Shown: positions 4,956 to 35,433 of the stretch, piece after piece
Numbering within the stretch: the stretch's first letter is position 1
Layout: each line of letters starts with the position of its first letter
From: an uncultured Granulosicoccaceae bacterium
GTDB lineage: Bacteria; Pseudomonadota; Gammaproteobacteria; Granulosicoccales; Granulosicoccaceae
Direction: 5' to 3'
Length of the DNA stretch: 35,947 bases
Assembly (NCBI GenBank): GCA_937931165.1
Contig: CALHCI010000161.1
Span: forward strand, 1 to 35,947
The notes under the pieces: generated by a model
The model's input: the letters and a program-made list of their open reading frames with translations, nothing else
The model's database searches: none
Told to the model about the DNA's origin: nothing
Made by a program: the position numbers and the translations under genes

Positions 4956-5010
4956 CAATAAAAAGTTAACGCCCTTGTGTGATTACTAAACCAATATAGA
5001 GCTATCCAAT

Positions 5011-15112: not shown

Positions 15113-15137
15113 GTTTTTGTGTCGGAGCCCGCTTACG

Positions 15138-16481: not shown

Positions 16482-17768
16482 CTACCCGGGGTTGTTAATG
16501 TAAATATGAAACGCTTCACGGCGACGGGACTCCTCCGGCAAAGGAACACTGTCGTCGATAGACAGACCGGTGACCAGCAGATCTTCCGTGCCATCTCCAT
16601 TGATATCTGCAAACGTACATGCACCCGCGGCTGATCCGTGAATTACTCCATCGCTAATCGTCATAGAGTCTGCATCTCTTTGGTTGAGCACCAATCTGCT
16701 CTCCGGCAGATAATCCCCGATGTAGATACTCGCCGGATAATGGAAATCGCCAAAAGCGACAAGATCCAGTGTCTGGTTTTGATCAACATCCGAGACACAG
16801 AAAAACGCACTTTTTGTCGGCAAGGATATATGCTGCAACTCACCGAAGCTAGCCCCCCCATCATTGACTAAAACACCAGATGAACCTGCCCAGTGCCTGA
16901 AGGAAGTGGCATTTTGCACCACTACCATGTCAGCGTCATTGTCATTGTCGAAGTCAGCCAGTTTAAAACTACTGGATCCCTCAGAGAGAATTCCATTAGC
17001 TACATTGCGCGTCGCCTCTTTAGTAAAACCACCAACACCGTTGTTTTTGTACATACGCAACTGATACCGATACTGCGCTGAGTAATACAGCGCGACAATG
17101 TCCAGGTCACCGTCGTGGTCAATGTCTCCTGGTTGAGCGCTGTGACGGTACTGCCCCGGGTGGCTTTGAGTATCAACAGAAACCAATGAGAACTGACCAA
17201 AGCCGTCATTCAAAAACACCTGCACCAGATACTCGGAATCAGCATACCCGGCGATCACCAGATCACCTGTCGAGTTACCATCAAAATCACCAATAGCGAC
17301 TGAAGGAAATGCCAGTGGCTCAATAGTGCTAGCGCTGCCGCTCTCAAAAATACCGCTACCATTATTAAAGTAAACATGGGCGACTGGTGCAGAGTCATTT
17401 ACCCCCAGTAAAACGATATCAAGATCCGAATCCTGATCAAGGTCTCCCACGGCCACAGCAGAATTCTCAACATTTGCCAGATCGTTTACACTCTTAATAA
17501 ATTTACCGGTGCCATCGTTGAGGTAAATTTCTGATGAAGGTCCGGTCGCCGAAAGCCCGGAAACAATCAAATCATTATCGCCATCTCCATCAAAATCACC
17601 CGCTTCAATATCTCCATTGTAAATCGGCGTAATTGAATCTGACGAAACCAGACTAAACAGACCCGACTCCGATGCCGCAGCGTCAGGCTCCGGGTGGTCT
17701 CCGGAAGAACAGGATATAAGTAGGGGGAAAATCAGCAGTAGCGAGCAATAGATTTTGGAGCAGTACAT
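16482..17768 (-). CDS. FG-GAP/VCBS-repeat surface lipoprotein with seven repeats
   Basis: A 428-residue protein from ATG 17768 (a GTG three codons earlier is possible). The lipobox LLISC gives a lipidated Cys at residue 20. Seven calcium-loop repeats follow at regular spacing: GDFDGDGDNDL, GDLDQDSDLDI, GDFDGNSTGDL, GDIDHDGDLDI, ADFDNDNDADM, SDVDQNQTLDL and ADINGDGTEDL. Seven is the number needed for a complete integrin-like beta-propeller. It should sit on the periplasmic or outer face of the outer membrane and bind ligands in a calcium-dependent manner. No partner gene is apparent. Confidence 0.85.
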   Translation of the reverse strand: MYCSKIYCSLLLIFPLLISCSSGDHPEPDAAASESGLFSLVSSDSITPIYNGDIEAGDFDGDGDNDLIVSGLSATGPSSEIYLNDGTGKFIKSVNDLANVENSAVAVGDLDQDSDLDIVLLGVNDSAPVAHVYFNNGSGIFESGSASTIEPLAFPSVAIGDFDGNSTGDLVIAGYADSEYLVQVFLNDGFGQFSLVSVDTQSHPGQYRHSAQPGDIDHDGDLDIVALYYSAQYRYQLRMYKNNGVGGFTKEATRNVANGILSEGSSSFKLADFDNDNDADMVVVQNATSFRHWAGSSGVLVNDGGASFGELQHISLPTKSAFFCVSDVDQNQTLDLVAFGDFHYPASIYIGDYLPESRLVLNQRDADSMTISDGVIHGSAAGACTFADINGDGTEDLLVTGLSIDDSVPLPEESRRREAFHIYINNPG

Positions 17769-18885: not shown

Positions 18886-21800
18886 CTATGCTTCAGGAAT
18901 GAAAAAATACTCACTGATTTCATGACCGGCATTTTTAATCGGCGAATACTGCGGGCTTTGCTGCACATTAAACTGACCTGCCTCAAACTCCACCTTTTGT
19001 TGTACCGCACGGAACAATTGATTGCCTGACAACGCTCCGGCGTTATTCTTAAGCTCATCAATTACCGCTTTTGCAAACACAGAATTCTGCGAATTGCCAA
19101 GTGCATCGAAGACCGGCTTAACACCGCCAGATGTCATCACCACCCTCGCCTTCAGCGAGGCATTCAGCTTAAACCAGTCTGGCGTCAACTGTTGTTCAAC
19201 AAAATCGAGGCCGCCTCTTATAGAGGTTTTAGTCAAAGTTCCTGAGTAGCAAGAGTCCGCAACCACCATAACGTGGCGTGCTTTCATCGCGCTGATTATA
19301 TCGGTGATAACCTCGTTTGAAATCCAGTTTGAACTGTCGTTGGGAAGCGCGTCTACCGGGAGCCAAAAGCCCTTATTGCCAGATTCATCAAGCTCGCCGT
19401 GACCGGCATAATAGATCAACAGATTATCCTTACTGGTCAGCGATTCGTATTGTCGATTAAGGCTTAGCAGCAGTTCTTCACGTGTGGCATTTAACAATAG
19501 CTCAGTAGAGTAGCCGTATCTTGTCCGGAGCAACTTCTCAATCGACACAACATCGTTCTCTACGGTAGACAAAGGTGACCGGTGCTCATAGTCAAAGTTG
19601 CCGATAATCAACGCATGGTATTTCCCGAAGTCTGCAGATCTCGCTGCTGACAGGTAACGCGTGTTATCGAGCGGCTGGTCCGGCTGGCGCAGAGTGGTGG
19701 CTGTACGTGTTGGCCGTGGTGACACATTTAGCTCTACCAGATTACGCTGGGCATCATTATCGACAGCGATCATTGAGATGGTGGTACCGGCACTCAAATT
19801 ATGTGCATATTTAAACAGCCCCGCCGAGTTAAACGAGACCGGGGAGTTATTGATATTAAGACTAAAAATATCCTGAGCAGGTGACACCTTTCCGGTGATC
19901 TCTAACTGATTACTTCCAGCCGGATGCGGCAAAGTAACCTTGCCACGTGTTACCAGTTGCTGTGGTGCAATAATCTCAATGGCAGGGCCAACTGCGACCA
20001 CCGTTTGGTTGCGTGTATCGGCATTGCTGTCCAGCTTGACACGCAACGAGGCAACATCTGTCTCCAACTGTGATACTTCCGCCTCTTTTTTCGCCAGCAA
20101 CTGCGACTTAATGGCGAGTTGCTCTTCACTCTCGCTAAGCTTGCCAATCGTTTGCTTGAGTTTTTGACTGGAGGCTAATTGAACCTTGAGCAATTTTGCA
20201 CTGAGACGCTTCTGTTCCCCTTTTGCAATTTCAACGGCCTTTTGATTTTGCACAAGTCTGGCTCGCAGTTCGTCGCGCTCTTCATTGTTAGCTGCAATGC
20301 TAATAGCGTCGTTAAGTCGCACTACCTCCTGTTCAAGTGAGACAATGCTGCGCTGCTGTTGCTCTACTATTTCGGATCTTTCGTCAGCCAGAGCGGCAAA
20401 GCGATCTGCACGACCCTCGGCATCTTCAAGCTGCTCAGATAAGGTAAGTTTTAGATCAAGCAGTTTATCTAACAAACCACGCTGCTCCTGCCGCGAAATC
20501 TCAAGCGCTTTTTCACTGGCATCGAGCGCATCTGCCAGTGCCCCCGAACTATCACCAGTTTGCTCGACTTGTTGTCGATAGCTGGCTACCTGTTTTTCAA
20601 GTAAGCTGATCTGCTGTTGTTGCGACGCAACCAGAGCTTCTCGCTCTTGTATTCCGGCTTCTAGTTCCCCGGTGTTTGAACGGTTCCGGGCGAGTGTCAG
20701 TTCACTGGAAATCAGCTTGGTCGACAATCGTCTTTGCTCAGATTGAGCATTTTGCAGTTTTTGTTCAGATTCAAACAACTGACGCTGTAACTGTGCAACA
20801 TCGGTGGCGGCCTGTGCGGACTCAATTGAGCGGGACAGCCTGTTTTGAAGAATATCGCGCTCGGCAGCAGTTTGCTTGAGCGTCTGCTGGCTCTGGTTCA
20901 ACGCCATCTCAAGCTGTTCGCGCTCAGTCATTATTTCATCAAGCTTCGACGCACTGAGTTGTTCACTCTGCTGGCTGTCCTGCAAGTTGGCAGTAAGCAC
21001 AGTGATACGTTCCAGGTATCCGGACTCCAGTGTTTCAAGTTGTCGTTGCAGATCTCCGATGGTTGCATTTCGGTTGGCCAGTTCGGATTTCAGCTGATTT
21101 TCCACCGCGAGCGCCTGCGCAAGTTTGTTGTTATCCGAGCTGCCTGTATCTATATTCAGTGTGTCTATTTCACGACGCAGTGATCCAGCCTGTAGTTTTT
21201 CTGTATTGAGCTCGGATGCAAGCTCTGACCGACTGTTCGGATTATCAGAGATCTGCTGCTCAAGAAAAGCAATCCGATTTTCTTTACGCCGCAAACTCTC
21301 GCTGAGTTCGTCTACAACTGACTGACTGGCTACAGACTCTTTTCTCGCTTCAGATGTGAGTCTTTGCTGCTGAGCGATCTTGCGTGTCAGCCTTGCCTGC
21401 TCCTCGCGTGCTATTTCAAGTTGCTGTCGGTACGTTGCGATTTGATCCGCCTCGGGATCAGCAGTCAACGTCGATTGTCTTTCCTGCTGTACCTGCTTTT
21501 CTAACTGCTGTAACGCTTTGCGGTCACTTTGCAGCTCGGCTTGTTTTGCACCAAGCTGATCGGTCAGTGCAGCAACCTGTGAATTTAACTCGGCAATTGT
21601 GTCCTCACTGAGTTTTTTGCTGGCTTCACGCCGCGCATACTCTGCTGTTGAAACATACTCAAGCTCACCATCCGTAATACCGGACGCTTCACGATAGTAA
21701 TTCATCGCCAGTGCAAGGTCCTGTTCCACGCCAAGACCTGTTTCATACAGATACCCTAGATTAATCAGTGCGCGGCTATAACCACTTTTTGCAGCCCGGC

Positions 21801-22221
21801 GATACCATGCAGCGGCCACTGCATAGTCGGCTTGCTGTCCAAGCCCTTTCTCGAAAATCTCGCCGACATAGGTTTGTGCCTCTGCATCACCCTGTTCAGC
21901 CTGTTCCAGCCAGACTTTCAGTGAGGTGGCAAAGTTCGCTCGATCATAGCTCACATAATCCCCTCCGCGGATAGCACACTCACTAGCTGGCAATTTAGCC
22001 GGACGCTGCGGAGTCAGGTAGGTGAACTTTAAACCAAGACGACGCACTTGACTGGGTAATAGACAATCAACTATTAATAAGTCATCGGCATTGCGTGAAG
22101 CCTGTGTTGCCTGTGTCTGCGAATCTGTTGGAGGCGTCGAGGTGCACCCGACTATCACTGTTAATACCAGCGCTGCCAATCCATAGCACCGTTGCCCTGT
22201 ATTCAATCTTGTAGCTTTCAT
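18886..22221 (-). CDS. Caspase-like (C14) lipoprotein with Sel1 repeats and long coiled coil
   Basis: A 1111-residue exported lipoprotein. The signal ends in the lipobox VIVGC, so Cys26 is lipidated. Two Sel1 repeats lie at about 111-147 and 148-184 (AEAQTYVGEIFEKGLG and ALINLGYLYETGLGV). A very long Gln/Glu-rich coiled coil covers about 205-740. A beta-rich Ig-like segment spans about 755-840. The C-terminal caspase-like domain (864-1111) has His941 in YYAGHGE and Cys991 in VADSCYSG, the catalytic pair of caspases and orthocaspases. These proteases cut after basic residues in many bacteria. The coiled coil could span the periplasm. It lies downstream of the Ser/Thr kinase gene on the same strand (61 bp), so co-expression is likely. 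Target unknown. Confidence 0.85.
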   Translation of the reverse strand: MKATRLNTGQRCYGLAALVLTVIVGCTSTPPTDSQTQATQASRNADDLLIVDCLLPSQVRRLGLKFTYLTPQRPAKLPASECAIRGGDYVSYDRANFATSLKVWLEQAEQGDAEAQTYVGEIFEKGLGQQADYAVAAAWYRRAAKSGYSRALINLGYLYETGLGVEQDLALAMNYYREASGITDGELEYVSTAEYARREASKKLSEDTIAELNSQVAALTDQLGAKQAELQSDRKALQQLEKQVQQERQSTLTADPEADQIATYRQQLEIAREEQARLTRKIAQQQRLTSEARKESVASQSVVDELSESLRRKENRIAFLEQQISDNPNSRSELASELNTEKLQAGSLRREIDTLNIDTGSSDNNKLAQALAVENQLKSELANRNATIGDLQRQLETLESGYLERITVLTANLQDSQQSEQLSASKLDEIMTEREQLEMALNQSQQTLKQTAAERDILQNRLSRSIESAQAATDVAQLQRQLFESEQKLQNAQSEQRRLSTKLISSELTLARNRSNTGELEAGIQEREALVASQQQQISLLEKQVASYRQQVEQTGDSSGALADALDASEKALEISRQEQRGLLDKLLDLKLTLSEQLEDAEGRADRFAALADERSEIVEQQQRSIVSLEQEVVRLNDAISIAANNEERDELRARLVQNQKAVEIAKGEQKRLSAKLLKVQLASSQKLKQTIGKLSESEEQLAIKSQLLAKKEAEVSQLETDVASLRVKLDSNADTRNQTVVAVGPAIEIIAPQQLVTRGKVTLPHPAGSNQLEITGKVSPAQDIFSLNINNSPVSFNSAGLFKYAHNLSAGTTISMIAVDNDAQRNLVELNVSPRPTRTATTLRQPDQPLDNTRYLSAARSADFGKYHALIIGNFDYEHRSPLSTVENDVVSIEKLLRTRYGYSTELLLNATREELLLSLNRQYESLTSKDNLLIYYAGHGELDESGNKGFWLPVDALPNDSSNWISNEVITDIISAMKARHVMVVADSCYSGTLTKTSIRGGLDFVEQQLTPDWFKLNASLKARVVMTSGGVKPVFDALGNSQNSVFAKAVIDELKNNAGALSGNQLFRAVQQKVEFEAGQFNVQQSPQYSPIKNAGHEISEYFFIPEA

Positions 22222-22282: not shown

Positions 22283-23443
22283 TTACGGATTCCCTATTCG
22301 TTCCAGAGAAGCCTGGGCACACTGGTTTCCGGGGTCGTAACCCAACACAACCTCATAGGCTTCTTTTGCGTTGGCACCCGCCGGCATTGTCACTCTTCCA
22401 ACTGCCTCGTGGGATTGCGCCATTTTCAACAGCAGATTCACGGTAGCATTTTCTTCTGACGATAGTTGCTGTGATTTATACGGTAATTCACAGACATCTC
22501 CGCCCAACGGAAACTGCTTATAGGCAACGTATAGTGCACCGCACAATGCAATCGCCCCCACCGATAGTACTAAACCACGATTTGCATGCTTAGGGGCTTC
22601 CGCATTATCGAGTGTTTTTTGCGACGGAAAGAGTTCATTTAAATGAGAAAGCAATTGTTCGGCATTGGCGTACCGATCATCCGGGTTTCTTGTCAATAAC
22701 CGGTCTACAACCGGCTGCCATTTTTCATGCTTTTGCTCGAGTTTCAGCGTATCGCTTTTCAGGCGCTGCGCCAGGATCTGGCTAAAGTCGCTGTCCTGTG
22801 TTTTGAACGGATGTTTACCGGTAAGCATTTCAACCAGTACAACACCAAGCGCGTACAAATCTGAACGCGCATCAAGTTCGGAACCAAAAAACTGTTCCGG
22901 TGCCATGTACTCCATGGTGCCAACCACCACATTGGCTTGCGTCAGTGTGAGATCGGTCTTGTCACTGCGCTTCGCGATACCAAAATCTGTTAATACCGGT
23001 TTTCCGGCATCGCTAAAGACTATATTTGACGGCTTGATATCACGGTGAACAATACCGGCTTCATGCGCGTAAGCAAGTGCTGAGGCCAGTGACCGTAATA
23101 CCTCAATAACGGGTTGTTGCAGATCACCTGCATTAAGCACCTCCCGGAGTGTGTTGCCCCCCAGGTACTCCATTGCCATGTAATAAAATTTACCGCTCTT
23201 CGCGATATCATGAACTGTAACGATGGAGTCGTGGTTTCTTAGCTTTGCCAGTGTCCTGGCTTCACGTATGAAGCGCTCACAATTAGCAACGTCCCTGGCA
23301 AGCTTCGGATACATGATTTTAAGCGCGACATTTTCGCCGAGCATTTCATGCTGCGCCAAATACACTTTGGCGAATCCACCTTCGCCAATTTGCTGCAATA
23401 TACGGTAACCGGGAATTGGCTGCTGATTTGACTCTTCAGTCAC
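22283..23443 (-). CDS. Transmembrane Ser/Thr protein kinase (PknB-like)
   Basis: A 386-residue kinase. All catalytic features are readable: glycine loop GEGGFAKV (20-27), Lys42 in VALKIM, catalytic loop HRDIKPSN (133-140, Asp135), DFG (153-155), activation-loop threonines at 164-169 and APEQ (181-184). One membrane helix lies at about 290-310, followed by a periplasmic tail of about 75 residues that looks TPR-like and could sense a signal. GTG start. It stands upstream of the caspase-like gene and downstream of the autotransporter gene on the same strand. The membrane FHA protein encoded 5.4 kb away is the natural candidate reader of its phosphothreonines (inference). Confidence 0.9.
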   Translation of the reverse strand: MTEESNQQPIPGYRILQQIGEGGFAKVYLAQHEMLGENVALKIMYPKLARDVANCERFIREARTLAKLRNHDSIVTVHDIAKSGKFYYMAMEYLGGNTLREVLNAGDLQQPVIEVLRSLASALAYAHEAGIVHRDIKPSNIVFSDAGKPVLTDFGIAKRSDKTDLTLTQANVVVGTMEYMAPEQFFGSELDARSDLYALGVVLVEMLTGKHPFKTQDSDFSQILAQRLKSDTLKLEQKHEKWQPVVDRLLTRNPDDRYANAEQLLSHLNELFPSQKTLDNAEAPKHANRGLVLSVGAIALCGALYVAYKQFPLGGDVCELPYKSQQLSSEENATVNLLLKMAQSHEAVGRVTMPAGANAKEAYEVVLGYDPGNQCAQASLERIGNP

Positions 23444-23506: not shown

Positions 23507-25135
23507 TTAGAACTTCATTCGATAACCGGCCTGTATACCCGAATAGCTGATATTGTTAAGACCAACAAGAGCACTATAGGTGACATAGGCAGACCGACCG
23601 TTAGAAAATGCACCGGTAATGTCAAACGCTATTGAACCATAGTCAAGATCAGTCTCTTCAGTCCGCAATGTAAAAGGCTGTGCGAGTGGATCATTAATGT
23701 AGGCTGCCTGGATAACGCGGGTGGTATCTGACAACTCACGAAAATAGTCAAGCCGGTACTGGCCGGATAACAACCCCCAATCCATACTGCGAGTTACTGC
23801 TGCATGAAACCCCACTCTGGCTTTAGATGATTCGATATCCTGATCGGCGTAGTCAAGCCCAAGGCCACGACCAATCCCCTCAGGGTTGGACATTGACTCG
23901 GTATATCCGTCAATCTGCTGATTGGTATAACTCAGTCCGACGCTCGGCCCGTAAACCCAGTTGTTGTGAATAAACTCGCGACCAAAATCAACCACAACCG
24001 ATGCCTGGGTACCGTCGGTTTCACCTCTGGCGGTTTGGTCCACAGTCACCGTGTTGCCGGTAACATCTACCACACAGCAGCCACCGCTGGTTTCATCCAG
24101 TGTGTAGTTTAACCTTCTGTCGCTACTGTGAGTTGACGGGGAAATATTGCCAAATCCGCTAAAATAGAAGCCGTTGTTAACGTAGCGTGATCCATAAACA
24201 GACAAGCCGATGACACTGCTTTCAAGGTCACCACCACTGTTGGCCATATCCATCGCAGTATCGTTATAACTGAACGCCACACCAATAAAACCGTTTTCAC
24301 TTACCTGATAGTCGATACCGGTGGTTAAAGAAAGGTTCTGGTAATCAAATCCTGCTTCGCGTCCGCTGGCATCTTTTTCACCACCACTGACAGTGCCACT
24401 AAGAAAAAATCCAATTTTACTTGGGCCTAACCCGTCCGGATCATCGGACGGCAACAGCGACGCAGACAATATTTTTGCGCCATCACGCATAGCGACCTGC
24501 GTTCCACCCTGCGGTGCGAGCCCACCTTGCAATGCTCTGATGCGTGCAGAAATACTGTTTTGTTGCGTGTTTACCGCATCGGTGGAGACTGTGCCATAGG
24601 CGGCTATTTCATCGGGACCAATTTGATCGAGCGCTCTGATAGCGGCCCGGTTGTCATCAGCGTCTGCCGGGTTTGCCGCCAGTCCGGAACCGGCTGACTG
24701 AATAACATCTGCACACCTTCGAAGGAGGTCTACCCCATCAGCACCTAACGCTGCCTGCTGTGCCTGCTGTTGTTCCTGAGTACTAAGATCAGCACCGCCA
24801 AAGCCCTGAAATCCGTCCTGCCCCGGCAATAATCCAGGATCTGTGATCGAGCTGTGTGAGGCCTGGTTCATACCAACGCAGACCTCCCAAACACCTATGG
24901 ATGACGGGATATCCTTAAACTGTGAGATATCGACACCAAGCAATTCAAGCCCGCGCGTGCCGTGCACCGCAAACTGCGTGTCAGAGAGTTGTTGACTGGT
25001 ATCCGGGTTGCCATTAACGATGGCGTTGCTGTTCTGTGCAATGGCCGAACTAACTATCGTTACGTTGAGCACTACGCTAAAAGCGATAACAGCTGGACGC
25101 GCCAAAACCGGCGCCAAGGTGTGTGTTACGTTCAT
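23507..25135 (-). CDS. Autotransporter with C-terminal outer-membrane beta-barrel
   Basis: A 542-residue protein with a signal peptide (1-34, cleavage near AIA/Q) and a 12-strand-type autotransporter barrel over roughly 255-542, ending in the terminal YRMKF. The passenger is short (about 220 residues), Gln/Ala-rich, with four cysteines at most and a segment (IRALDQIGPDEIAAYGTVST) seen before the barrel in several gammaproteobacterial autotransporters. No protease triad or adhesin repeats are visible. It heads the minus-strand run toward the kinase (63 bp gap) and is divergent from the vWA-like gene. Confidence 0.8.
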   Translation of the reverse strand: MNVTHTLAPVLARPAVIAFSVVLNVTIVSSAIAQNSNAIVNGNPDTSQQLSDTQFAVHGTRGLELLGVDISQFKDIPSSIGVWEVCVGMNQASHSSITDPGLLPGQDGFQGFGGADLSTQEQQQAQQAALGADGVDLLRRCADVIQSAGSGLAANPADADDNRAAIRALDQIGPDEIAAYGTVSTDAVNTQQNSISARIRALQGGLAPQGGTQVAMRDGAKILSASLLPSDDPDGLGPSKIGFFLSGTVSGGEKDASGREAGFDYQNLSLTTGIDYQVSENGFIGVAFSYNDTAMDMANSGGDLESSVIGLSVYGSRYVNNGFYFSGFGNISPSTHSSDRRLNYTLDETSGGCCVVDVTGNTVTVDQTARGETDGTQASVVVDFGREFIHNNWVYGPSVGLSYTNQQIDGYTESMSNPEGIGRGLGLDYADQDIESSKARVGFHAAVTRSMDWGLLSGQYRLDYFRELSDTTRVIQAAYINDPLAQPFTLRTEETDLDYGSIAFDITGAFSNGRSAYVTYSALVGLNNISYSGIQAGYRMKF

Positions 25136-25290: not shown

Positions 25291-26859
25291 ATGAAACGGA
25301 AAATCAACGGAGCATCGTGTGCAGTCCTGCTACTTGTTTTTGTGCTCTGCAGCAACCCGGTAACAAGGCTACTTGCCTCTGTGGGCCCCACCACTATCGT
25401 GGTTGTTGATCTGGGGATTTCAGAACCTTCAATAGCGCGTGCTACGGCTCTGATGAAAGACCTGGCAAGCGCCGCACCGGTCGAGACATCCATTGGCATG
25501 GTAGCTTCCAGTGATATAGTCATCGGCGTTATTGAGCCAGTGGAGTCAGGTGATTTTCTGGTTCAGCTGGAAGCACAAAAACCGCTACTTGAACACAGTG
25601 ACAAACAGGCATTTCCAGTTGCTGTAGAACGGGCACTGGATATGTTTGACGAAAACGGAGGTTCACTGGCTCTCATTACCAATGGCAACATTGACACAGC
25701 CAACGCTGAATATGACCAACAGTTTCATGACTGGTTTGAACTGCAAAAAGAAATGGCAGCACTGGGTAACGTTAAATTACTCGCACTGTCACCGGAGACT
25801 CCAACGGATTGGTTTATTAGGCATTTCAACGGAGAATCTGTGCTCGAAATGCCGGCAATAGACACGTCCCCCGTAGCGGTAATTGCAGACATTCTGGGAG
25901 TTGAAGCTGCAATACTCGCAAAAACCGATCTCTCCCCTGCGAATACAGAAACAGTGCTTTCAGACACGGATACACCATCGAAAGCGAGCACTGCAGACAG
26001 CACTGACAATAATACGCCTGGCACCGATACAACTGTTGCATTAGAGGTTACTCAATCACAGCCGAACATAGCGGATACTGAAACCACTGTATTGTCCGTG
26101 CAATCAGACTCTGACGGAGGTCAATCCGGCGCTGGTACCGCAGCAACAGTCAACGACATAATTACCGAGCCCAAAGCGGCCATTACAAACATTACAGTGA
26201 GTGATGCAAACGAACCACTGACCATCGCATCAAACAATACAACACTGAACGATGAGGCACTATCGGATAATTCAGGCAGCTCACTAACCAACAATACCTT
26301 ACCCAAAGCAGACGATCAGGTGACCGCACTGACAACGCCACAGGGAAAGGCAGATCCGGCAACTACACCGAAACAGACAGCCAATACGCAGAGTGCCGAT
26401 GCACAAGTAATAGACCCACCTGCTGTTAACAGCGGCACTAAAATAAACGATATAAAAACGGCGTCAAGTAATATTGACCGCCTGGCGTGGTCAGCTGCTG
26501 CTGGTGTCTTAGCCGGCCTGCTGTTATTACTATTGGCAATTAGATTGTTGCGTCGAAAAGGAACAGTTGGAATAACACAAACAGCAACCACTGAACACCC
26601 GTTGCAGAAAACTAAAGCACATCAGCAAGTACAAAACGATGCAACTGTCGCTCGGCCCTTACTACCACCCGAAGATGACAACACGTTTTCGTCTACCGCG
26701 TTGCACTCACTGATTGACAACGAAAATGAAAAGGCACTGGTCAATGATGCGCCGGAGGACGCTACGCGTCCCCACGCTATCAGGGCTGATACGAGCGATG
26801 CGACTGACGAGTTTGATGTGATAGACAAGTCGATTGACAGTAAGCGCAAAACAGACTGA
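25291..26859 (+). CDS. vWA-like membrane protein
   Basis: A 522-residue protein with an N-terminal signal or anchor (about 8-28), a von Willebrand A-like domain (about 34-190), a Thr/Asn/Ser-rich linker (about 215-390), one membrane helix (about 398-419) and a 100-residue hydrophilic cytoplasmic tail rich in acidic residues. The vWA pattern is readable in TIVVVDLGIS and SLALITNG, but the metal-site DxSxS is reduced to D-L-G-I-S, so metal binding is doubtful. The topology, with the vWA domain outside and the tail inside, suits a sensor or scaffold. AAAGGA precedes the ATG. It is the first gene on the plus-strand side of the island. Confidence 0.65.
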   Translation: MKRKINGASCAVLLLVFVLCSNPVTRLLASVGPTTIVVVDLGISEPSIARATALMKDLASAAPVETSIGMVASSDIVIGVIEPVESGDFLVQLEAQKPLLEHSDKQAFPVAVERALDMFDENGGSLALITNGNIDTANAEYDQQFHDWFELQKEMAALGNVKLLALSPETPTDWFIRHFNGESVLEMPAIDTSPVAVIADILGVEAAILAKTDLSPANTETVLSDTDTPSKASTADSTDNNTPGTDTTVALEVTQSQPNIADTETTVLSVQSDSDGGQSGAGTAATVNDIITEPKAAITNITVSDANEPLTIASNNTTLNDEALSDNSGSSLTNNTLPKADDQVTALTTPQGKADPATTPKQTANTQSADAQVIDPPAVNSGTKINDIKTASSNIDRLAWSAAAGVLAGLLLLLLAIRLLRRKGTVGITQTATTEHPLQKTKAHQQVQNDATVARPLLPPEDDNTFSSTALHSLIDNENEKALVNDAPEDATRPHAIRADTSDATDEFDVIDKSIDSKRKTD

Positions 26860-27022
26860 ATCCACCAGCCTAAGGTGCAGCAATCAGGATACTAAAAACT
26901 ATTTTTGTGTGTCTTTAATGGATACTTAAATAGAGAAACAAGCTGACCTCAATGCAGAGCTAAACTCCCATGAAAACTCTATCTAATTGTTTTCATTAGT
27001 TTTTTACATTTTTTAAAAACCC

Positions 27023-27051
27023 TGGCACGTATCTTTCCAGTATTTACGTGC
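27023..27051 (+). promoter_or_regulatory. Candidate sigma-54-like promoter with overlapping inverted repeat
   Basis: TGGCAC at 27023-27028, then 5 nt, then TTTC. This matches the -24 element of a sigma-54 promoter exactly and misses one base of the -12 element (TTGC). A 7-bp inverted repeat GCACGTA/TACGTGC (27025-27031 / 27045-27051) overlaps it. The start of the small peptide gene is 53 nt downstream. The rest of the gap 26860-27022 is AT-rich with no gene I can see. Confidence 0.35.
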
Positions 27052-27103
27052 AGCGACAAGCTGCAAATGACCAGATTTCACCTACATAAAGGACTAAGCA
27101 ATC

Positions 27104-27271
27104 ATGAAAATTGAAGATCTCAGCCACAATGCAAGCCTGGACAGAACGGCAATGGATGATGTCTCGGGCGGCATGAAATTCACCTGGAGACGAGTAAAAA
27201 AAATCAGGTACGTATTCGGTGTGAAGGTGGTCTGCTACGTTTGGAAACTGACACCCGTTTACTGCAACTAA
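27104..27271 (+). CDS. Double-glycine-leader cationic peptide precursor (bacteriocin/microcin-like)
   Basis: A 55-codon gene with AAAGGA at 27088-27093 upstream. The 23-residue acidic leader ends LDRTAMDDVSGG; counting back from the Gly-Gly, hydrophobic residues stand at -12 (Leu), -7 (Met) and -4 (Val), as in leaders cut by C39 peptidases. The 32-residue core starts at Met24 and carries five Lys and three Arg with no acidic residue (about +8), seven aromatic residues, and two Cys (44 and 54) able to form a disulfide ring. Downstream within 8 kb stand a C39 ABC exporter, an HlyD adaptor and an outer-membrane factor, the full export route. No modification enzyme or obvious immunity gene is adjacent. 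A signalling peptide instead of a toxin is possible. Confidence 0.8.
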   Translation: MKIEDLSHNASLDRTAMDDVSGGMKFTWRRVKKIRYVFGVKVVCYVWKLTPVYCN

Positions 27272-27295
27272 CCAACATACCCCGGTAACAGTGAC

Positions 27296-27335
27296 CAGGA
27301 TTGCCACTAACAGCAAACCAGGCTCAGGATTGCCA
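27296..27335. repeat. Direct repeat CAGGATTGCCA after the peptide gene
   Basis: Two identical 11-bp copies (27296-27306 and 27325-27335) lie in the 194-bp gap between the peptide gene and the outer-membrane factor gene. Spacing is 29 bp, close to three helical turns, so a regulator site is possible. No terminator hairpin with a U-run is visible, so read-through into the exporter operon is likely. Confidence 0.4.
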
Positions 27336-27465
27336 ATACCGGAATTGATAATGGATTCGAACGGCAAGTTGAGGTAGTTTGCCTTTGAGTATTGGTCACG
27401 AAAAGTAGAAGCGGAGTTTTACTGGTGAGCAACGACAGGGACTTTATTTTCAGGGATAGAATGCT

Positions 27466-28875
27466 GTGGAGTTAATTCCAGACCATAAATTTTTTTCCGG
27501 AGTGTTGATCGCAGCCCTGGTGACTACAGGCTGCGCTTCAAAGACGGTAAAGGAGTATGAGCGGCCGGAAACGCCGGAAAAAGCAGCGTTTGCAGCCGCC
27601 CCTGAATCGAGCGTGAATGCGCTGGAGGTAATTCGACCGGAGTGGTGGCAGGGTTTTAATGACCAAAAACTCAGCGAGCTTATAAAACTCGCTACCGACA
27701 ATAACCTTGATCTTGCAAACCTCCTGTTGGATATCGAAAAAGCCGGTATCACCCTGCAGGGTGCAAAGGTCGACCCGTTCCTGCCCAGCCAATCCATTAG
27801 CTTAGGGCAAAATGACTCTAACGATTCAAACAACCCAAGTTCAAAAAATGCCTCCTTGAACTTTGGGTGGGAATTCGACTTTATTGGCGGATTGCAAAAA
27901 CAAAAAACAGGAGTAAAGGCAAGCTACGCACGATTTCTTGGTGCAGAAGCTAACAAAAGAGCATTTTTTCTCACGCTGGTGAGTAACATTGGTAACCGTT
28001 ACTTTCAATTACTGTCTCTCGATGACAGCCTCGCTCTATTAAGCTCGGAGATTGAAAATCTTCGAAAGATAATCAGTGTTGAGGAATTGAAATTTAAAGA
28101 AGGGTTACTGGCAGAATCTGCAGTGAATCAACGCAGGATTCAACTCAGTGATGTCGAGAACAGAAAGATCACTTTACAACAGCAGCGAGATACGGAAGAA
28201 CTTGAGCTCACTTTGCTATTGGGAATGGTGCCAGGTGAATACCCCATAGAAAAAGGCCCTACTGTCTACCAAATAAAGCCGATTGAAATACCCGCTACTG
28301 CACCGGCATACATTATTGAGAACCGCCCGGACATCATTGCCGCAGAACAAGCTTTGCTGGCTGCACATGAGCAGGTTAACCTGGCCAGACTTGATCGATT
28401 ACCCTCATTAACATTGAGTCTTTCAGTGACACAAAACCTGCGCCAAAGTATGGCGGCTATGTTGTCGACTCTCACCAGAAGCCTGGCGGCAAACTTGACA
28501 ATAATCCCTTTTGATTCACGTAAAAAACGTGCACTTGAAAGCCGCACTATTGAGCAAAAGCAAGCCGCTAATACCTACCGGCAAACGATTTTACGGGCAT
28601 TTAAAGAGGTGGAACAAGCACTGCTGCTATACGACAGCCTGCAAAGACAGGATGTAACACTAAGACAAAAACACATGTTTCTTGAAAAGGCACTCGACAC
28701 GACAAATACAAGGTTAAATGCTGGACTGGTATCCCGCTTTGAAGTTATCGAAACGGAAAACCGTCTACTCGCAGCAAAGCAGGCACTGTATCAAAATCAC
28801 TTGCAAATTCTCAACGCCTCAATCGGAATCTATAAAGCATTCGGGGGCGGCTGGAGCTCCAAAGTGTCGAGTTAG
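27466..28875 (+). CDS. TolC/NodT-type outer-membrane factor lipoprotein
   Basis: A 469-residue outer-membrane channel of the OprM/CusC/NodT kind. The signal ends in a lipobox with Cys23 (LVTTGC). Two tandem repeats of barrel strands and long helices follow, with typical motifs DNNLDLANLLLDIEKA near the start of the first repeat and IENRPDIIAAEQAL near the start of the second. Three copies would form the outer-membrane exit duct. GTG start at 27466, preceded by AGGGA. It is the first gene of a tight four-gene operon; the next gene follows after 3 nt. Confidence 0.85.
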   Translation: MELIPDHKFFSGVLIAALVTTGCASKTVKEYERPETPEKAAFAAAPESSVNALEVIRPEWWQGFNDQKLSELIKLATDNNLDLANLLLDIEKAGITLQGAKVDPFLPSQSISLGQNDSNDSNNPSSKNASLNFGWEFDFIGGLQKQKTGVKASYARFLGAEANKRAFFLTLVSNIGNRYFQLLSLDDSLALLSSEIENLRKIISVEELKFKEGLLAESAVNQRRIQLSDVENRKITLQQQRDTEELELTLLLGMVPGEYPIEKGPTVYQIKPIEIPATAPAYIIENRPDIIAAEQALLAAHEQVNLARLDRLPSLTLSLSVTQNLRQSMAAMLSTLTRSLAANLTIIPFDSRKKRALESRTIEQKQAANTYRQTILRAFKEVEQALLLYDSLQRQDVTLRQKHMFLEKALDTTNTRLNAGLVSRFEVIETENRLLAAKQALYQNHLQILNASIGIYKAFGGGWSSKVSS

Positions 28876-28878
28876 ACT

Positions 28879-30909
28879 GTGCTATCAATTAACAATAAGA
28901 AAAACGCAATAAAGTTAATCCTGACACCGACAGACCAACACAGCGGTCTTCAGCCCATTGCTGTAACTACACCGGTATTCGAGATTGGCAAAAATGCACC
29001 CTTTATCAGCCAGTATTCCGATTCTCATGCAGAAGAAGTCAGCTGCCTCTCCCGAAGGCACGCTGCCATTCACTTTGAAAAAAACCAATATGTGCTTCAT
29101 GACCACGGCAGTACCAACGGTACGTTAAAAAACGATGCCATAGTCACCCAGGATAATCCTGCCCCTCTGCAAGATGGCGACACAGTTATCTTTGGCAATC
29201 GACTGTTCAGTTACCGGATAAAACTCGAAGCACCGGTAAAGCAAAAACAAACGAAGAAAAGGAAAGTACCGCCACCCCCACAATGTCCAGACCCCGGGCC
29301 GGCTACCGCCTACATTGGCAAAAGTTCTGTCGATGACATCATTGAAAAAATTATTAGCGATGAATCCGGCTCTTCACTGGAAATAGAAGATCTTGATAAA
29401 AAAAGCACAGAGAAAATTACCGAATCTCCAATCAAAAGGTTCGCATTGCCGCTGTTAGGCGGATTTGCGCTTCTTTTGATCGGAATCAGCCTACTGTCGT
29501 TTCTTTACTTCAGCAGAAACAGTGAAACCAATCTTATCGAAACAATGCTGGCGGACCGACAATACGATGCCGCGTTACAACTATCTACCCAGAACCTTCT
29601 CACGATACCATCCGGCTCGTCGATGGTTACCCGATTCGAAAACTATGCACAGGAGGCATTTATCGGCCTGGTAACTTCACCGTGGCTGGAACTGGTAAAC
29701 GATAATGATTTTACAACCGCAAGAGCTCAGCCTCAGCAGGCACTAACCCAAAGACAGCAGACTGGCGCTCCACACCTGACCACCATTAGCAACCTGTTGA
29801 CGTGGATAGCTAATCTGTTTCACGAACAGCAGCAGGGTGTTAGCGCATCTGTTTATCAATCAAATACCAGCGTCATGGAAATTGTGCGTCAGTGGCAGCA
29901 GAACAAAGAAGCCTATCTGGCAATGATGCGCCGAATTGAAACCCGCAACCCGCAGTTTGAACCAATACATCGCAAAGTAGTTAGCACACTCAGGGAATTA
30001 CAGGTTCAGCTGGACCAGGTCCGCCACAGCCGGCAAAATATTTTCGACACCGCAACAAAATATCTAAATCAGCCTGACACAGCACTACTCACTGCGCTGC
30101 AGAAAATCGCTAGTGACAATCCCGAACTACGCGAAACCAGCCGGCTAAATACAGAACTGGAGCGTTATGCTGCCACATTCAATGATGACAGGAGAGGCTG
30201 CTTTGGGCTGGCACTGGCTTTCAGTGGCAGTTCATTTGAACATCCGTTGATTCTGAATAAGCTCGAAACTCTACAAAACCGCGTGTTTGATTCACCGGAA
30301 GATCTCACCCAGACTCAGCGCGCACTCATTGAATGGCGACAAGGCGAATTTACTAACGCGCGCGACCTGCTATTGACCGCACGATGCAACCCGATTGATG
30401 GTCGTGATCCTGCAGCCGAGATAGATCGGATGAGTTCTATAGTTACTTTGCTTGAACAAGATAGCGACGAGAGCATGCTGGGCGCATACCAGCTATTTGA
30501 TGAACAGTACGACACCTATTACCTGGAACGACACCGCGATCGAATAGCCAACACACGACAAAAAGCGCTGACTGCTGCGCAGACCCTGGCAGCCGATGCT
30601 ATTGGAGCGTTTTCAACATATCAGGCCAATGGAGGTATTAGCGCATCCATGCGGATATCCACGCAATTAACAGACAGCTTTCAATCACAGGCATCAGCAC
30701 TTACCAATGCGTTACAGGCAGGCATCAGTGCTGAAAACATAGCGCGGGTAATTAACGTTGATCTGCAGTCGGAGCAAATCAATGCGTTTAGCGCTATACG
30801 AGACGAGGCTGACAACCAGATCGGATTCCTCGAGGAACTCCGCGGCAGCTTTTCTGACCGCGCGTTACTTGATCAAAAAATAGCTCTGCTAAAAGTGCGC
30901 AACGAGTAG
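28879..30909 (+). CDS. Membrane-anchored FHA-domain protein encoded in the exporter operon
   Basis: A 676-residue protein. An N-terminal FHA domain (about 11-113) keeps the phosphothreonine-binding Ser58 and His61 (SRRH) and Asn80 (DHGSTNGT); the first motif is GK (37-38) where GR is usual. A basic Pro-rich linker follows, then one membrane helix at about 189-211, and about 460 residues of mostly helical sequence on the periplasmic side without a recognised family. FHA domains bind phosphothreonine peptides, so the cytoplasmic end can read Ser/Thr kinase signals. Start is GTG, 3 nt after the outer-membrane factor's stop and 4 nt before the adaptor's start, so it is co-translated with the exporter. 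Confidence 0.85.
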   Translation: MLSINNKKNAIKLILTPTDQHSGLQPIAVTTPVFEIGKNAPFISQYSDSHAEEVSCLSRRHAAIHFEKNQYVLHDHGSTNGTLKNDAIVTQDNPAPLQDGDTVIFGNRLFSYRIKLEAPVKQKQTKKRKVPPPPQCPDPGPATAYIGKSSVDDIIEKIISDESGSSLEIEDLDKKSTEKITESPIKRFALPLLGGFALLLIGISLLSFLYFSRNSETNLIETMLADRQYDAALQLSTQNLLTIPSGSSMVTRFENYAQEAFIGLVTSPWLELVNDNDFTTARAQPQQALTQRQQTGAPHLTTISNLLTWIANLFHEQQQGVSASVYQSNTSVMEIVRQWQQNKEAYLAMMRRIETRNPQFEPIHRKVVSTLRELQVQLDQVRHSRQNIFDTATKYLNQPDTALLTALQKIASDNPELRETSRLNTELERYAATFNDDRRGCFGLALAFSGSSFEHPLILNKLETLQNRVFDSPEDLTQTQRALIEWRQGEFTNARDLLLTARCNPIDGRDPAAEIDRMSSIVTLLEQDSDESMLGAYQLFDEQYDTYYLERHRDRIANTRQKALTAAQTLAADAIGAFSTYQANGGISASMRISTQLTDSFQSQASALTNALQAGISAENIARVINVDLQSEQINAFSAIRDEADNQIGFLEELRGSFSDRALLDQKIALLKVRNE

Positions 30910-30913
30910 GATA

Positions 30914-32281
30914 ATGGACAAGAACTTACTGGAGGAAATACAGGCTCACCGATACAGCGACTTTGAAGTGCTCAATGGTGAACCTGCACGCTTCGCACGT
31001 TACTCTGTATATTTGATGATGTTGATGCTCTCGGCACTGCTGGTCTGGTCAGTACTAGCCAAGGCTCCAGTGGTGGTCAAGGCTAATGGCACACTAAAAC
31101 CGAAAAGTGATATTAAACGAATCTACACTCCAGTCGGGGGATATGTCAGTGAAATTCTGCTGTCAGTCGGGCAACCGGTAAAGGCCAACGATATTGTGAT
31201 GCGCATTAGATCAAACGATGTGTTTGAGCGCAGCAAGAACTATGAACAGGCACGGCTCAAATATGAGAGCACGTTACAGCGCAGAGAACGCAATCGCGAA
31301 GAAAGACCGACACTGCTGTCACAAATTGAACGGACAGAAAAGAGCATTGCCGATATTGATGAAGAACTCCAGCGCCAGCAACGTGATCGAAAATTTCGCC
31401 TGAGCCAGATACAACAACTACGACTTGATAGAATTAATGAAAACATAAAGAGTACCGCCCAGGCGAAGAGCAAAGCACTGGAAACATTCAGGAGTCTTGA
31501 GCGATTATTTAAGGAAGGTGCTGTTTCAGAGCGTGAACTCAACGAAGGACGCTCGCAGTATAACCAGCGCAAACAACAACACGACACAGCCAAAAATTCA
31601 CTACTAGAATACGAATTAAACCTTTCATCCGAGTCACGACAGGAACGCGAAGCGTTACGAAGTCTTGGTGATCGGCTCGACGTAAAAAACCGTGAGCGCG
31701 ACGAACTCTACGCCAAACAACGCGAAATGGACCGGGTTGATCGCAATATCGAGTCAGAGATCAGACTGGCGAAACTCGAATTAGACGTAGCAGCTCAAAT
31801 CTCATTTGATGATATCGACAGTAATGGACTGCTACTTATACGCTCGCCAATAGATGGCGTGATTTCAAGCAATAGCGTGACCCAGTCCGGCCAGCTGGTC
31901 GATGCAACACGCCACCTGGCAGAAGTAGCTCCGGTGGACAGTGAAAAAGTTTTATCGGTACTCATTCCCGAGAAAGACCGATTGTTTTTGCGTGAAGGTA
32001 TGTCTGTTCGTGTGAAATTTAATGCCATGGACTATCGCCGGTTTGGCGTCGCAGATGGATTACTACGATATATCTCCCCCATCACCCAGAGACCCGCGCA
32101 GGGCAATTCCAACAACACACCCACCTATAGTGGCGTCGTTGAAATTCAGCGCGAAGGCCTAACACTTGGCGAGAACTTCTATGCGTTGCAGTACGGCATG
32201 CAAGCCACTGCCGAAGTCATTGTTCGGAACCGAAGAGTGATCGATATTGCGCTGGACCCGTTAAGGAAAGTTGTGTATTAA
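30914..32281 (+). CDS. HlyD-type membrane fusion (adaptor) protein
   Basis: A 455-residue periplasmic adaptor with one N-terminal membrane helix (31-49). The lipoyl half-motif (about 64-98, PVGGYVSEILLSVGQPVKAN) and its partner half (about 306-340, IRSPIDGVISSNSVTQSGQL) flank a long coiled coil (about 103-300), followed by a beta-barrel domain. It links the ABC exporter in the inner membrane to the outer-membrane factor and sits between their genes. Length and order match type I secretion adaptors. ATG 4 nt after the FHA gene. Confidence 0.9.
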   Translation: MDKNLLEEIQAHRYSDFEVLNGEPARFARYSVYLMMLMLSALLVWSVLAKAPVVVKANGTLKPKSDIKRIYTPVGGYVSEILLSVGQPVKANDIVMRIRSNDVFERSKNYEQARLKYESTLQRRERNREERPTLLSQIERTEKSIADIDEELQRQQRDRKFRLSQIQQLRLDRINENIKSTAQAKSKALETFRSLERLFKEGAVSERELNEGRSQYNQRKQQHDTAKNSLLEYELNLSSESRQEREALRSLGDRLDVKNRERDELYAKQREMDRVDRNIESEIRLAKLELDVAAQISFDDIDSNGLLLIRSPIDGVISSNSVTQSGQLVDATRHLAEVAPVDSEKVLSVLIPEKDRLFLREGMSVRVKFNAMDYRRFGVADGLLRYISPITQRPAQGNSNNTPTYSGVVEIQREGLTLGENFYALQYGMQATAEVIVRNRRVIDIALDPLRKVVY

Positions 32282-32334: not shown

Positions 32335-35300
32335 ATGTCTGATCTAAAGCTACTACAGAATAACCCGCTGTTTTCGGGGTTTTCTGACGACGAGCTCACT
32401 TGGCTGCTTGAAGCCGGTGAGACAAGGCAGTTCGGCTTCGGTGACATACTTTGCACAGCCGGAGAGAAACCCGGCGGGCTTATTTTTGTCATGGAGGGGG
32501 CAGTTCGCCTTTTTCGTGGCCTTGCAGGTGGCGGGGAAATAAACCTCGGGGTTAAGAAGAAAGGAGAGTGCCTTGCAGAGTTTGGCGCTATTGCCAATGT
32601 CACTATTGACTATTCTGCACGTTCTTCCGGCAAAACCAGAGTCCTGCTGATAGACCGCAACTCAATCAATACACTGTTTGCACAAAGCGTAGATGCACAG
32701 CGAACCGAGACATTTAAAAAGAGTGTACTGCTCGCTGCTATGGGTGGTCTGGTTGCCACTATGTTTGGCTTTAAACCCGGCGTCTCGGATATCAACACAG
32801 GTCTGGTTCAGTCAATAGGTGTTAAGTCAGTGAAAGCTGGCGAACATATTGTGCATCAGGGTGATGCTGCTGACCGGAGGCTCTATGTGGTTCGCAAAGG
32901 CCGTGTCTTATTACAACTTGAGAACGCCACTGAGACACCGGTAAATATTTCAAAGGTTGGAGAGGGAGAAACGTTCGGCGAACACAGCTGCATTAATAAA
33001 TCCCCCCAGCCTGCCAGCGCAATTGCTGAAACTGATGTTGTCCTGCTGATTATCCCTCACCGTACTGTTGGTGAAATTATCCACCTGAACCTTGATCTGC
33101 GTGAGGTACTCGATCAGCGGGCACAGCGATTGATTAAAGATATCAGCCTGCAAAAAGATCTCATTGAACAAGGCAAAAAAAGCAAAGGCAGTCTGTTTCT
33201 TGGCGGTAAATCTATTGCCGGTCAACGTGTTCTCAAACGTTTCAGCCTGATTGAGCAGGCAGAACAAATGGATTGTGGTGCGACCTGCCTTGCAATGATC
33301 TGCAAACACTACGGGCTGTCAATCAGCCGTGGCAAGCTGCGAGAGATGGTTAACACCACCCTCGAAGGTGCAACACTTGACAGCCTTGCAAAGGTTGGAG
33401 AAAGCCTGGGATTCAACGTACAGGGCGTGCGCTGCTCTTTTGATGTGTTAAGTGATTTTGAGCTGCCGTTTATTGCTCACTGGGAGGGCTATCACTACGT
33501 TGTTGTTCATGGAATATCCAAGAATCGGGTGTGGGTTGCGGACCCTTCACTGGGTTTTGTTGAATACACACGGGAGGAATTTGAAAAAGGCTGGGAAGGG
33601 ATTTGCCTTCAGTTTTCATTTAATGCTGAGCAACTGGAAAAGAAAAAATCAGAGCACAGCACCACCAGCCCCTGGACGCATTTTCTAAAGCTGCTGGTTC
33701 CGCAGCGCAAGACACTGCTCCTGGTATTACTGGTCACGTTTCTAATAGAACTTTTAAGCCTGGTTCCGCCGATGGTGGTACAGCAGATACTTGATACGGT
33801 GCTCGTCTATGAGAGCTCGCAGCTACTGTTCTTTTTAATTGGTGCATTAGTGGCGACACATTTTTTATCTCAGATCACCACATTGCTACGTGCCTACTTT
33901 TTCAATTTTATTATTCGCAAACTCGACTACGCGATGGTGTCCGGTTTCTATCGACACGCATTCGCACTACCACTCAGCTATTTTATTACACGACGTACGG
34001 GCGATATTGTTGCCCGCTTTCAGGAAAACGAGAAAATAAGAAGCTTCCTGACCGACTCAACCATTACGACTATTCTGAACGTGTTAATGCTGTTTATTTA
34101 TCTGGCCGTACTTATCGGCTACAGCATGAAATTAACGCTGCTACTACTGGCGACGGTCGTGCCGCTGGTGGCGCTCACTCTTTTGGTAACGCCTAAGTTC
34201 AAGAAATATTCGCGTGAACAATTCGCCACTGAAACTGAGGCGGAATCACTATTGATCGAGACACTGTCTGGTGCAGAAACAGTTAAGGCGATGGGTATTG
34301 AAAGACCTCAGCGCATGAAATGGGAGCGCAAGTACCTTAAAGCACTTGGGGTTCGTTACCGATCAGCGCAGTTCGAAGCCTATGTGGAGTTTTTTAGCGG
34401 GTTGTTTAACGCAATATCATCCATCATCGTACTGGCTGTCGGGTCGAAGATGGTGATTGACCAGCAATTGTCTATTGGCCAACTCATGGCGTTTAACATG
34501 CTCTCCGGGCAGGTTATGCAGAGAATGATGGAACTGGTTGGCATGTGGGATGAAATTCATGACGCCGGAGTTTCGATGGAGCGGCTGCGAGATGTGCTGG
34601 ATCTGGAGCCGGAACAATCACCACAGGAACTGGAAACACTTATACAGTTGCCTGATATGCAGGGCAGCATTCAGGTAGAGAATGTGGGCTTTCGATACCC
34701 CGGGGACAGTCACGCACCCGCGGTTCTGCACAACGTGAGCTTTAACGTCGAGGCTGGCGAATCGATCGCTATTGTCGGGCAAAGCGGGTCAGGCAAAACC
34801 ACTTTGGCAAAACTGTTGATTGGATTTTTCGAACCGCAAGATGGCGGTACCATTAAAGTTGACGGGTACGATTTACAACGCATAGACATGGGCACCTTAC
34901 GGAAAAAGGTTGGCTATGTGATGCAAAGCAATCTGTTATTTTCGGGTAGTATTGCAGAAAATATTTCGCTTGGGTCTGATACTCAGGATATGGGCCGCAT
35001 TGTGGAAGTGGCTAAACTTGCCGATGCGCATCACTTTATCGACAAACTGCCAAACGGCTATGAACAGGTGGTCGGTGAACGCGGGGTAGGATTATCCGGG
35101 GGACAAGTGCAACGGCTGTGCATCGCCAGGGCACTATACCGTGATCCTCGCATATTGATCTTTGACGAAGCCACTTCGGCGCTGGATACTCAATCAGAGG
35201 GGAATATAGTAAAGAACCTTCAGGAAGTACTACAGGGTCGCACCAGCATCGTCATAGCCCATCGCCTGAGTACTATTAGAAATGCAGATCGGATAATTGT

Positions 35301-35433
35301 GATGTACGCGGGAGGGATAGCAGAGATGGGCAGCCATGACGAGCTAATTGAAACCCGGGGAATGTACTATCAGCTGATAAAAAATCAGCTAAGCCCGGAC
35401 GCAGTAGCCGAGGAAACCGAGGAAACCGCTTAA
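32335..35433 (+). CDS. Peptidase-containing ABC exporter with two cNMP-binding-like domains
   Basis: A 1032-residue fusion. Two cyclic-nucleotide-binding-like domains (about 8-118 and 152-262; the second keeps GEHIVHQGDAADRRLYVVRKG and GETFGEHS) precede a C39 peptidase (about 300-428) with oxyanion Gln308, catalytic Cys314 in MDCGATC, His387 in YHYVVVHG and Asp403 in ADPSLG. A six-helix ABC membrane domain (about 445-740) and the ATPase follow: Walker A GQSGSGKTT (815-823), signature LSGGQ (920-924), Walker B ILIFDEATSALD near 940-951, H-loop IAHRLS. It should cut Gly-Gly leaders and export the core peptide. Usual C39 exporters are about 700 residues; the extra N-terminus accounts for the difference. 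Last gene of the operon; gap of 53 nt before it. Confidence 0.92.
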   Translation: MSDLKLLQNNPLFSGFSDDELTWLLEAGETRQFGFGDILCTAGEKPGGLIFVMEGAVRLFRGLAGGGEINLGVKKKGECLAEFGAIANVTIDYSARSSGKTRVLLIDRNSINTLFAQSVDAQRTETFKKSVLLAAMGGLVATMFGFKPGVSDINTGLVQSIGVKSVKAGEHIVHQGDAADRRLYVVRKGRVLLQLENATETPVNISKVGEGETFGEHSCINKSPQPASAIAETDVVLLIIPHRTVGEIIHLNLDLREVLDQRAQRLIKDISLQKDLIEQGKKSKGSLFLGGKSIAGQRVLKRFSLIEQAEQMDCGATCLAMICKHYGLSISRGKLREMVNTTLEGATLDSLAKVGESLGFNVQGVRCSFDVLSDFELPFIAHWEGYHYVVVHGISKNRVWVADPSLGFVEYTREEFEKGWEGICLQFSFNAEQLEKKKSEHSTTSPWTHFLKLLVPQRKTLLLVLLVTFLIELLSLVPPMVVQQILDTVLVYESSQLLFFLIGALVATHFLSQITTLLRAYFFNFIIRKLDYAMVSGFYRHAFALPLSYFITRRTGDIVARFQENEKIRSFLTDSTITTILNVLMLFIYLAVLIGYSMKLTLLLLATVVPLVALTLLVTPKFKKYSREQFATETEAESLLIETLSGAETVKAMGIERPQRMKWERKYLKALGVRYRSAQFEAYVEFFSGLFNAISSIIVLAVGSKMVIDQQLSIGQLMAFNMLSGQVMQRMMELVGMWDEIHDAGVSMERLRDVLDLEPEQSPQELETLIQLPDMQGSIQVENVGFRYPGDSHAPAVLHNVSFNVEAGESIAIVGQSGSGKTTLAKLLIGFFEPQDGGTIKVDGYDLQRIDMGTLRKKVGYVMQSNLLFSGSIAENISLGSDTQDMGRIVEVAKLADAHHFIDKLPNGYEQVVGERGVGLSGGQVQRLCIARALYRDPRILIFDEATSALDTQSEGNIVKNLQEVLQGRTSIVIAHRLSTIRNADRIIVMYAGGIAEMGSHDELIETRGMYYQLIKNQLSPDAVAEETEETA

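Follow-up and report, generated by a model that had tools for sequence, protein, structure and literature searches.

The short frame at 27104-27271 of the window (the whole stretch of 35,947 nt analysed here) was identified by sequence comparison as a real gene for a double-glycine-leader precursor, and its product is very probably exported as the cargo of the C39 exporter encoded just downstream. The identification as a gene was based on 18 relatives with acid-free cores and on an independent leader profile, and the cargo reading was supported by the leader family, its conserved place beside related exporters, and the same relatives. The preliminary description, which was made from the letters of the window, had proposed both a hidden true gene and a cargo of this exporter; both proposals were strengthened, with export itself being a prediction. 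The features are listed in Table 1.

Table 1. Precursor gene, export operon and neighbouring features in the window
Feature	Position	Strand	Basis
Sel1-repeat and caspase-like (C14) protein	18886..22221	-	domain matches
Ser/Thr protein kinase	22283..23443	-	domain match
Sigma-54-type (-24/-12) promoter-like site	27022..27038	+	11/13 consensus letters
Precursor peptide gene	27104..27271	+	55 codons and stop; 18 relatives
Gly-Gly leader, 23 residues	27104..27172	+	leader profile; helix 7-20 predicted, low confidence
Cationic, aromatic core, 32 residues	27173..27268	+	predicted beta-hairpin, strands 24-37 and 40-53; P0017 likewise
Outer-membrane factor (OEP; NodT type below cut-off)	27466..28875	+	domain matches
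FHA-domain protein	28879..30909	+	domain match; not in the preliminary description
HlyD-type periplasmic adaptor	30914..32281	+	domain matches
Exporter: cNMP-binding (x2), C39 peptidase, ABC membrane domain and ATPase	32335..35433	+	domain matches, PCAT1 alignment

Precursor gene and relatives of the peptide

The translation of the 55-codon gene and its stop codon fell exactly where they had been placed. A leader ending in VSGG with hydrophobic residues at -12, -7 and -4 had been described, and in the translation VSGG occupied residues 20 to 23 while the hydrophobic positions were L12 (-12), M17 (-7) and V20 (-4). Hydrophobic residues at -4, -7 and -12 are the general pattern of Gly-Gly leaders, and the leader carried this feature of C39 (PCAT) cargos. 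A recount of the 32-residue core agreed with the earlier figures of eight basic (K/R), zero acidic (D/E), seven aromatic (F/W/Y) and two cysteine residues, and the ribosome site was found as AAGGA 10 nt upstream of the ATG.

Relatives of the peptide were sought in about 5.8 billion proteins. The first search detected two; a three-sequence profile raised the number to 10 and an eleven-sequence profile to 18, of which the weakest was at E 3.8e-13. Some of them were near copies or differed only in their start. The peptide family, window peptide included, comprised 19 protein clusters, and the 18 relatives were compared as protein sequences. All 19 cores were strongly cationic and free of acidic residues, which was computed for 11 of them and established by reading for 8. 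The alignment of 16 of the 19 showed L6, N9, L12, D13, GG, W28, G39 and L49, among others, to be invariant. The two cysteines of the window peptide were missing in P0002 and P0003 and were not conserved in the aligned family.

A chance ORF without product was judged a negligible explanation. It would agree with the shortness of the frame, the absence of a Pfam or NCBIfam family at cut-off (P0001), the lack of a sigma-70-type promoter in the scan, and the codon usage, which on its own lent the frame little support (a score of 0.0, with -2.3 to -29.9 for the remaining frames). It was ruled out by the 18 relatives at E <= 3.8e-13, the leader profile and the conserved place of the gene. No terminator-like site was detected on the + strand between 26800 and 27700, and one antisense ORF of 107 aa overlapped the peptide gene.

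Modification of the core before export, as in a RiPP precursor, was considered very improbable. The ATP-grasp-target RiPP model did match P0001 and P0003, at 15.5 and 16.8 bits against a cut-off of 32, but no ATP-grasp, radical SAM or lanthionine-synthetase family (Pfam) was present in the 24 other window proteins scanned, and no Ser, Thr or Cys of the core was conserved in the alignment of 16 of the 19 clusters. Two methyltransferases were encoded in the window, at least 15 kb from the peptide.

Among the 48 genomes from the source organism's family, a set identical to that for the order, only its own contained the peptide. A genus search with the peptide gave matches at E <= 1 in 5/14 genomes, four of which, besides its own, were at 0.23 or worse and thus at chance level. 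The phylum draw with profile A4 gave matches in 4/398 genomes, convincing only in its own; the other three were weak (E 0.0018 to 0.0054). One weak A4 match, L028, came from a Burkholderiaceae-group genome and was a leader gene whose core differs. No relative was found in viral contigs, in plasmids searched with P0004, or in the order of G209 (0/5 genomes). For the exporter, a full-length match was obtained in its own and one other of the 48 genomes, the latter at 33% identity, and three more genomes of the family matched only the C39-ABC or ABC part. The 33% match (L021 and L022, G047:C6) belonged to another genus of the family, and a leader-motif scan of these two loci found no leader gene. 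One distant partial match, in Emticicia (28% over 217 residues), came from the exporter search of the genome contig set. Since the peptide occurred in its own genome only and the full-length exporter in its own and one other, the spread of both within the source family was consistent with acquisition from outside.

The leader family beside cNMP-C39 exporters

The best matches of the exporter in plasmid records were in Caballeronia and Burkholderia; for four of these, identity was about 50-51% with 98% of the length covered. Three of these plasmid loci were inspected, and short genes with the same leader were seen in 3/3. Profile A3 was built from 6 Burkholderiaceae leaders with the window leader excluded. 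When it was run against the 4.86-Mb genome of the source organism, the window ORF was the best of 4 places with E 3.2e-4 and the next was at 0.61. The window gene scored 22.9 bits, and the highest score in 50 versions of the window shuffled in 2-base blocks was 12.1.

The exporter was matched at E <= 1e-200 in 56/200 genomes drawn from the family of G649, which was taken as Burkholderiaceae because the exporter region of L081 (G862) was identical to that of the Caballeronia M1242 plasmid. One TGA lay inside the match in 7/56 cases and those genomes were left out; 46 of the 56 exporter loci were analysed. Together with L013, L014, L015, L019, L020 and the window they formed a set of 52 loci. 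L013 and L081 stand for a single replicon (M1242), so that the 49 Burkholderiaceae loci represent 48 distinct ones. Profile A3 was applied to the 14,584 open segments (35-320 aa) of the 52 loci and 126 leader genes were obtained at a line of 6.75 bits, which was drawn post hoc after viewing the list; it keeps two type B genes in the right place at 7.0 (L063) and 6.8 (L064), and the best other segment scored 6.7. Each of the 126 belonged either to the stretch upstream of the outer-membrane factor, on the exporter strand, or to another array on the downstream side of the exporter.

At least one leader gene was present in 50/52 loci. The preliminary description had suggested a search of related genomes for short frames with the same leader beside the exporter genes. 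Leader genes stood beside a related exporter (cNMP x2, C39, ABC), about 50-53% identical to that of the window, in 49/49 Burkholderiaceae loci; in 42 of these one sat directly before the outer-membrane factor, where the window gene is, and in the other 7 they lay downstream only. The gap between the end of the peptide gene and the start of the outer-membrane factor was 194 nt in the window, and the corresponding gap after the last upstream leader gene was 206 nt in L013. In L019 and L020, from other families of the same class (exporters 51-52% identical), the visible sequence upstream of the outer-membrane factor contained no leader gene; on the downstream side these loci stop at contig ends. 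The outer-membrane factor, FHA domain, adaptor and exporter were matched in 50/50 other loci. The PPIase gene of the sister loci was absent from the window, whose contig ends 514 bases past the exporter. No description of the leader family or the peptide was found in the open-licence literature, which was covered mostly at title and abstract level. A screen for double-glycine peptides was reportedly performed by Dirix et al. in 2004.

The Burkholderiaceae cores were sorted, by our own scheme, into type A (62 genes, mean charge -0.7), type B (44 genes, -0.9), type C (12 genes, +4.6) and type D (7 genes, -0.3). Types A, B and D averaged 21% N/Q. The mean core length was 46-72 residues by type, and most sister cargos were longer than the window peptide, whose core had a charge of +8 and 3% N/Q. 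The cargos of this exporter family vary, with the window peptide as a chemical outlier among them. Because types A, B and D were near-neutral and N/Q-rich, the exporter family was not specific to cationic peptides, and the varied sister cores weigh against reading the whole leader family as antimicrobial. In L013 at 4898-5500 (+) and 17139-17429 (-), with equivalents in L063-L108, unnamed proteins with a Gly-Gly leader and an N/Q-rich core were encoded in arrays that have sigma-54-type promoters; two L013 leader proteins that were scanned had no Pfam match. Type C (e.g. L014 18782-19000 (-)), with 12/126 leader genes, was a basic and shorter Gly-Gly cargo that has TLLR or TLFR at its end.

Export operon, regulation and comparison with known systems

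The operon had been described as a C39-ABC exporter with an adaptor and an outer-membrane factor, which domain matches on the same strand and the alignment of catalytic residues confirmed. The FHA protein, the sigma-54-type site and the pair of cNMP domains were not part of that description. The exporter was 1032 residues long. In its C39 domain, at about residues 300-435, the Cys, His and Asp as well as the Gln preceding the Cys aligned with those of PCAT1; these are the catalytic residues. An adjacent exporter with such residues is a feature of PCAT cargos. The cNMP region stood N-terminal to C39 and ABC, a HetC-type layout, with two cNMP stretches.

Sigma-54 promoters follow a -24/-12 consensus, and the window site was situated 65 nt upstream of the start codon, the GC of its -12 element reading TC. 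Its score was reached at 341/23,826 window positions (1.4%). At the sister loci, with M1242 counted twice, at least 10/13 letters were found upstream of 87/98 first leader genes and 0/27 later genes, against a random background of 826/10,000 positions at this level; 'first of array' was our own term for a gene with no leader-gene end in the 600 nt upstream of it. Type C genes were mostly without such a site (present in 1/12). A sigma-54 activator gene was matched just after the exporter in 50/50 other loci. It was absent at this usual place from the 514 bases remaining on the window contig, and the N-terminal domain of the activator was not found in the source genome (best E 0.40).

The kinase at 22283-23443 is possibly a partner of the FHA protein. 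Several other genes of the region were noted. Caspase-like (Peptidase_C14) genes near the cNMP-C39 exporter also occurred in L020 at 12476-15238 (-) and in L013 at 1659-3551 (-), combined with Sel1 in the window and L020 and with FGE-sulfatase in L013; the L013 C14 protein had a tblastn match in 46/50 loci, L013 itself counted. Upstream of the peptide, at 25291-26859 (+), a 522-residue protein without Pfam or NCBIfam match looked secreted or membrane-anchored by reading, and between it and the kinase an autotransporter-barrel protein was encoded at 23507-25135 (-); neither had a tblastn match in the 50 other loci. Far from the peptide, at 6508-7683 (+), there was a serine hydrolase-like protein of the beta-lactamase family (PF00144), a family that also covers esterases.

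It was regarded as quite improbable that the peptide serves as a pheromone, an exported signal that the producer or its kin would sense. The cNMP domains, FHA protein and kinase point to an output under regulation, and Gram-positive C39 exporters also export pheromones (PMC10986499). Against this, no histidine kinase or other evident receptor family was found in the 24 other window proteins scanned, and the charge and aromatic content of the peptide were judged high for a signal.

Class II microcins of the MccV type resemble the present system in their Gly-Gly precursor, C39-ABC exporter, membrane-fusion protein and outer-membrane factor. They have a leader of 15-18 residues, an adjacent immunity gene, a C39-ABC exporter, an adaptor and TolC (PMC10233263). 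Here, by contrast, the leader had 23 residues, the exporter had two cNMP domains, an extra FHA gene was present, and no immunity-type gene was adjacent: besides the peptide, no + strand ORF of 51-216 aa was found at 26860-27466. Membership in this class was therefore rejected on leader length and the immunity gene. The missing immunity gene leaves killing possible, since Gly-Gly bacteriocins without an immunity protein exist in Bacteroides (PMC10233263).

HetC of Nostoc PCC 7120 is a cNMP-C39-ABC exporter that binds ppGpp in vitro (PMC10986499). Going by this published description, it is like the window exporter in its N-terminal cNMP region followed by C39 and ABC, with the catalytic Cys and His. 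According to that paper, no cargo of HetC is known and no Gly-Gly gene lies near it, and its substrate is named as an open question (PMC10986499). The window differs in that a cargo gene precedes the exporter operon and in having two cNMP stretches. The Burkholderiaceae cNMP-C39 loci share the leader profile, the gene place in 42/49 loci and a related exporter, but differ in their mostly near-neutral, N/Q-rich cores and in the PPIase and sigma-54 activator genes present there.

Core structure and proposed function

The AlphaFold2 model of the window peptide (11 sequences) contained a leader helix at residues 7-20 with a pLDDT of about 45-53, and two strands, at 24-37 and 40-53. The pLDDT was about 80-81 over residues 31-50 and 60-66 at the ends of the core, and the overall values were a mean pLDDT of 64.6 and a pTM of 0.33. 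The distant relative P0017 (16 sequences) was modelled with the same layout, with pLDDT 80-88 over residues 31-60, a leader helix at 6-24 at pLDDT 40-57, a mean of 66.5 and a pTM of 0.32. The core is thus likely a beta-hairpin, at the modest confidence of these models. A Foldseek comparison with solved structures gave no match better than E 1.0. A disulfide hairpin was ruled out as a family feature because the two cysteines were not conserved. Beta-hairpin antimicrobial peptides such as protegrin and tachyplesin, which are defined by intramolecular disulfides (PMC13001179), are likewise short, cationic and single-hairpin (the last predicted here), but the present family differs in its cysteines and in having a C39-type leader.

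Based on these features, the following course was proposed. The C39 domain of the neighbouring cNMP-C39-ABC exporter would recognise the leader and cut after G23, releasing a 32-residue cationic, aromatic and likely beta-hairpin peptide, and the mature peptide would leave via the HlyD adaptor and the outer-membrane factor. Nucleotide on the cNMP domains may gate the release, as may phospho-signalling via the FHA protein and the kinase at 22283-23443. Once outside, the peptide would act on membranes of competing cells, an action consistent with its charge, its aromatic residues and the modelled hairpin. Taken as a whole, the reading of a C39-cut, exported cationic hairpin acting on competitors' membranes was considered on balance probable, and for antimicrobial or other membrane activity of the peptide the case was evenly poised. 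Antimicrobial action would be just one among several candidate functions, since no immunity gene was found, the cysteines were not conserved, and the sister peptides are mostly longer, near-neutral and N/Q-rich, which brings them closer to matrix proteins.

By the same export route, the peptide might instead be a structural or biofilm-matrix component self-assembling as a beta-sheet, like EbfG of Synechococcus, which we regard as rather unlikely. EbfG1-4 of Synechococcus elongatus are double-glycine proteins whose efficient secretion depends on the C39 exporter PteB; they serve biofilms, and EbfG1-3 form amyloid (PMC4997328, PMC9981879). By description, the likeness is that a Gram-negative bacterium secretes small Gly-Gly proteins by means of a C39 transporter, and the difference lies in the role shown for EbfG, which is biofilm, and in the amyloid of EbfG1-3. 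Matrix building would be consistent, by analogy, with the EbfG precedent and the mostly N/Q-rich sister cargos, and the strand-rich core predicted for both the window peptide and P0017 and the lack of an immunity gene point in the same direction. The strongly cationic, acid-free nature of all 19 cores and the N/Q content of just 3% in the window core argue against it.

Our work paired a cNMP-C39 exporter with a cargo gene family that is recognisable by its leader in two lineages, so that gating of export by a nucleotide can be put to the test on a defined substrate. The peptide is conserved and free of acidic residues in its core, a candidate hairpin that lacks conserved cysteines and lies outside the Pfam and NCBIfam families at cut-off. 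We tentatively suggest, as somewhat short of probable, that it may represent a new class of secreted bacterial peptides, cationic aromatic beta-hairpins free of disulfides that a nucleotide-gated, phospho-regulated C39 system would export on demand, with a leader family that would mark the cargos of cNMP-C39 exporters and would be sigma-54-driven in the Burkholderiaceae branch.
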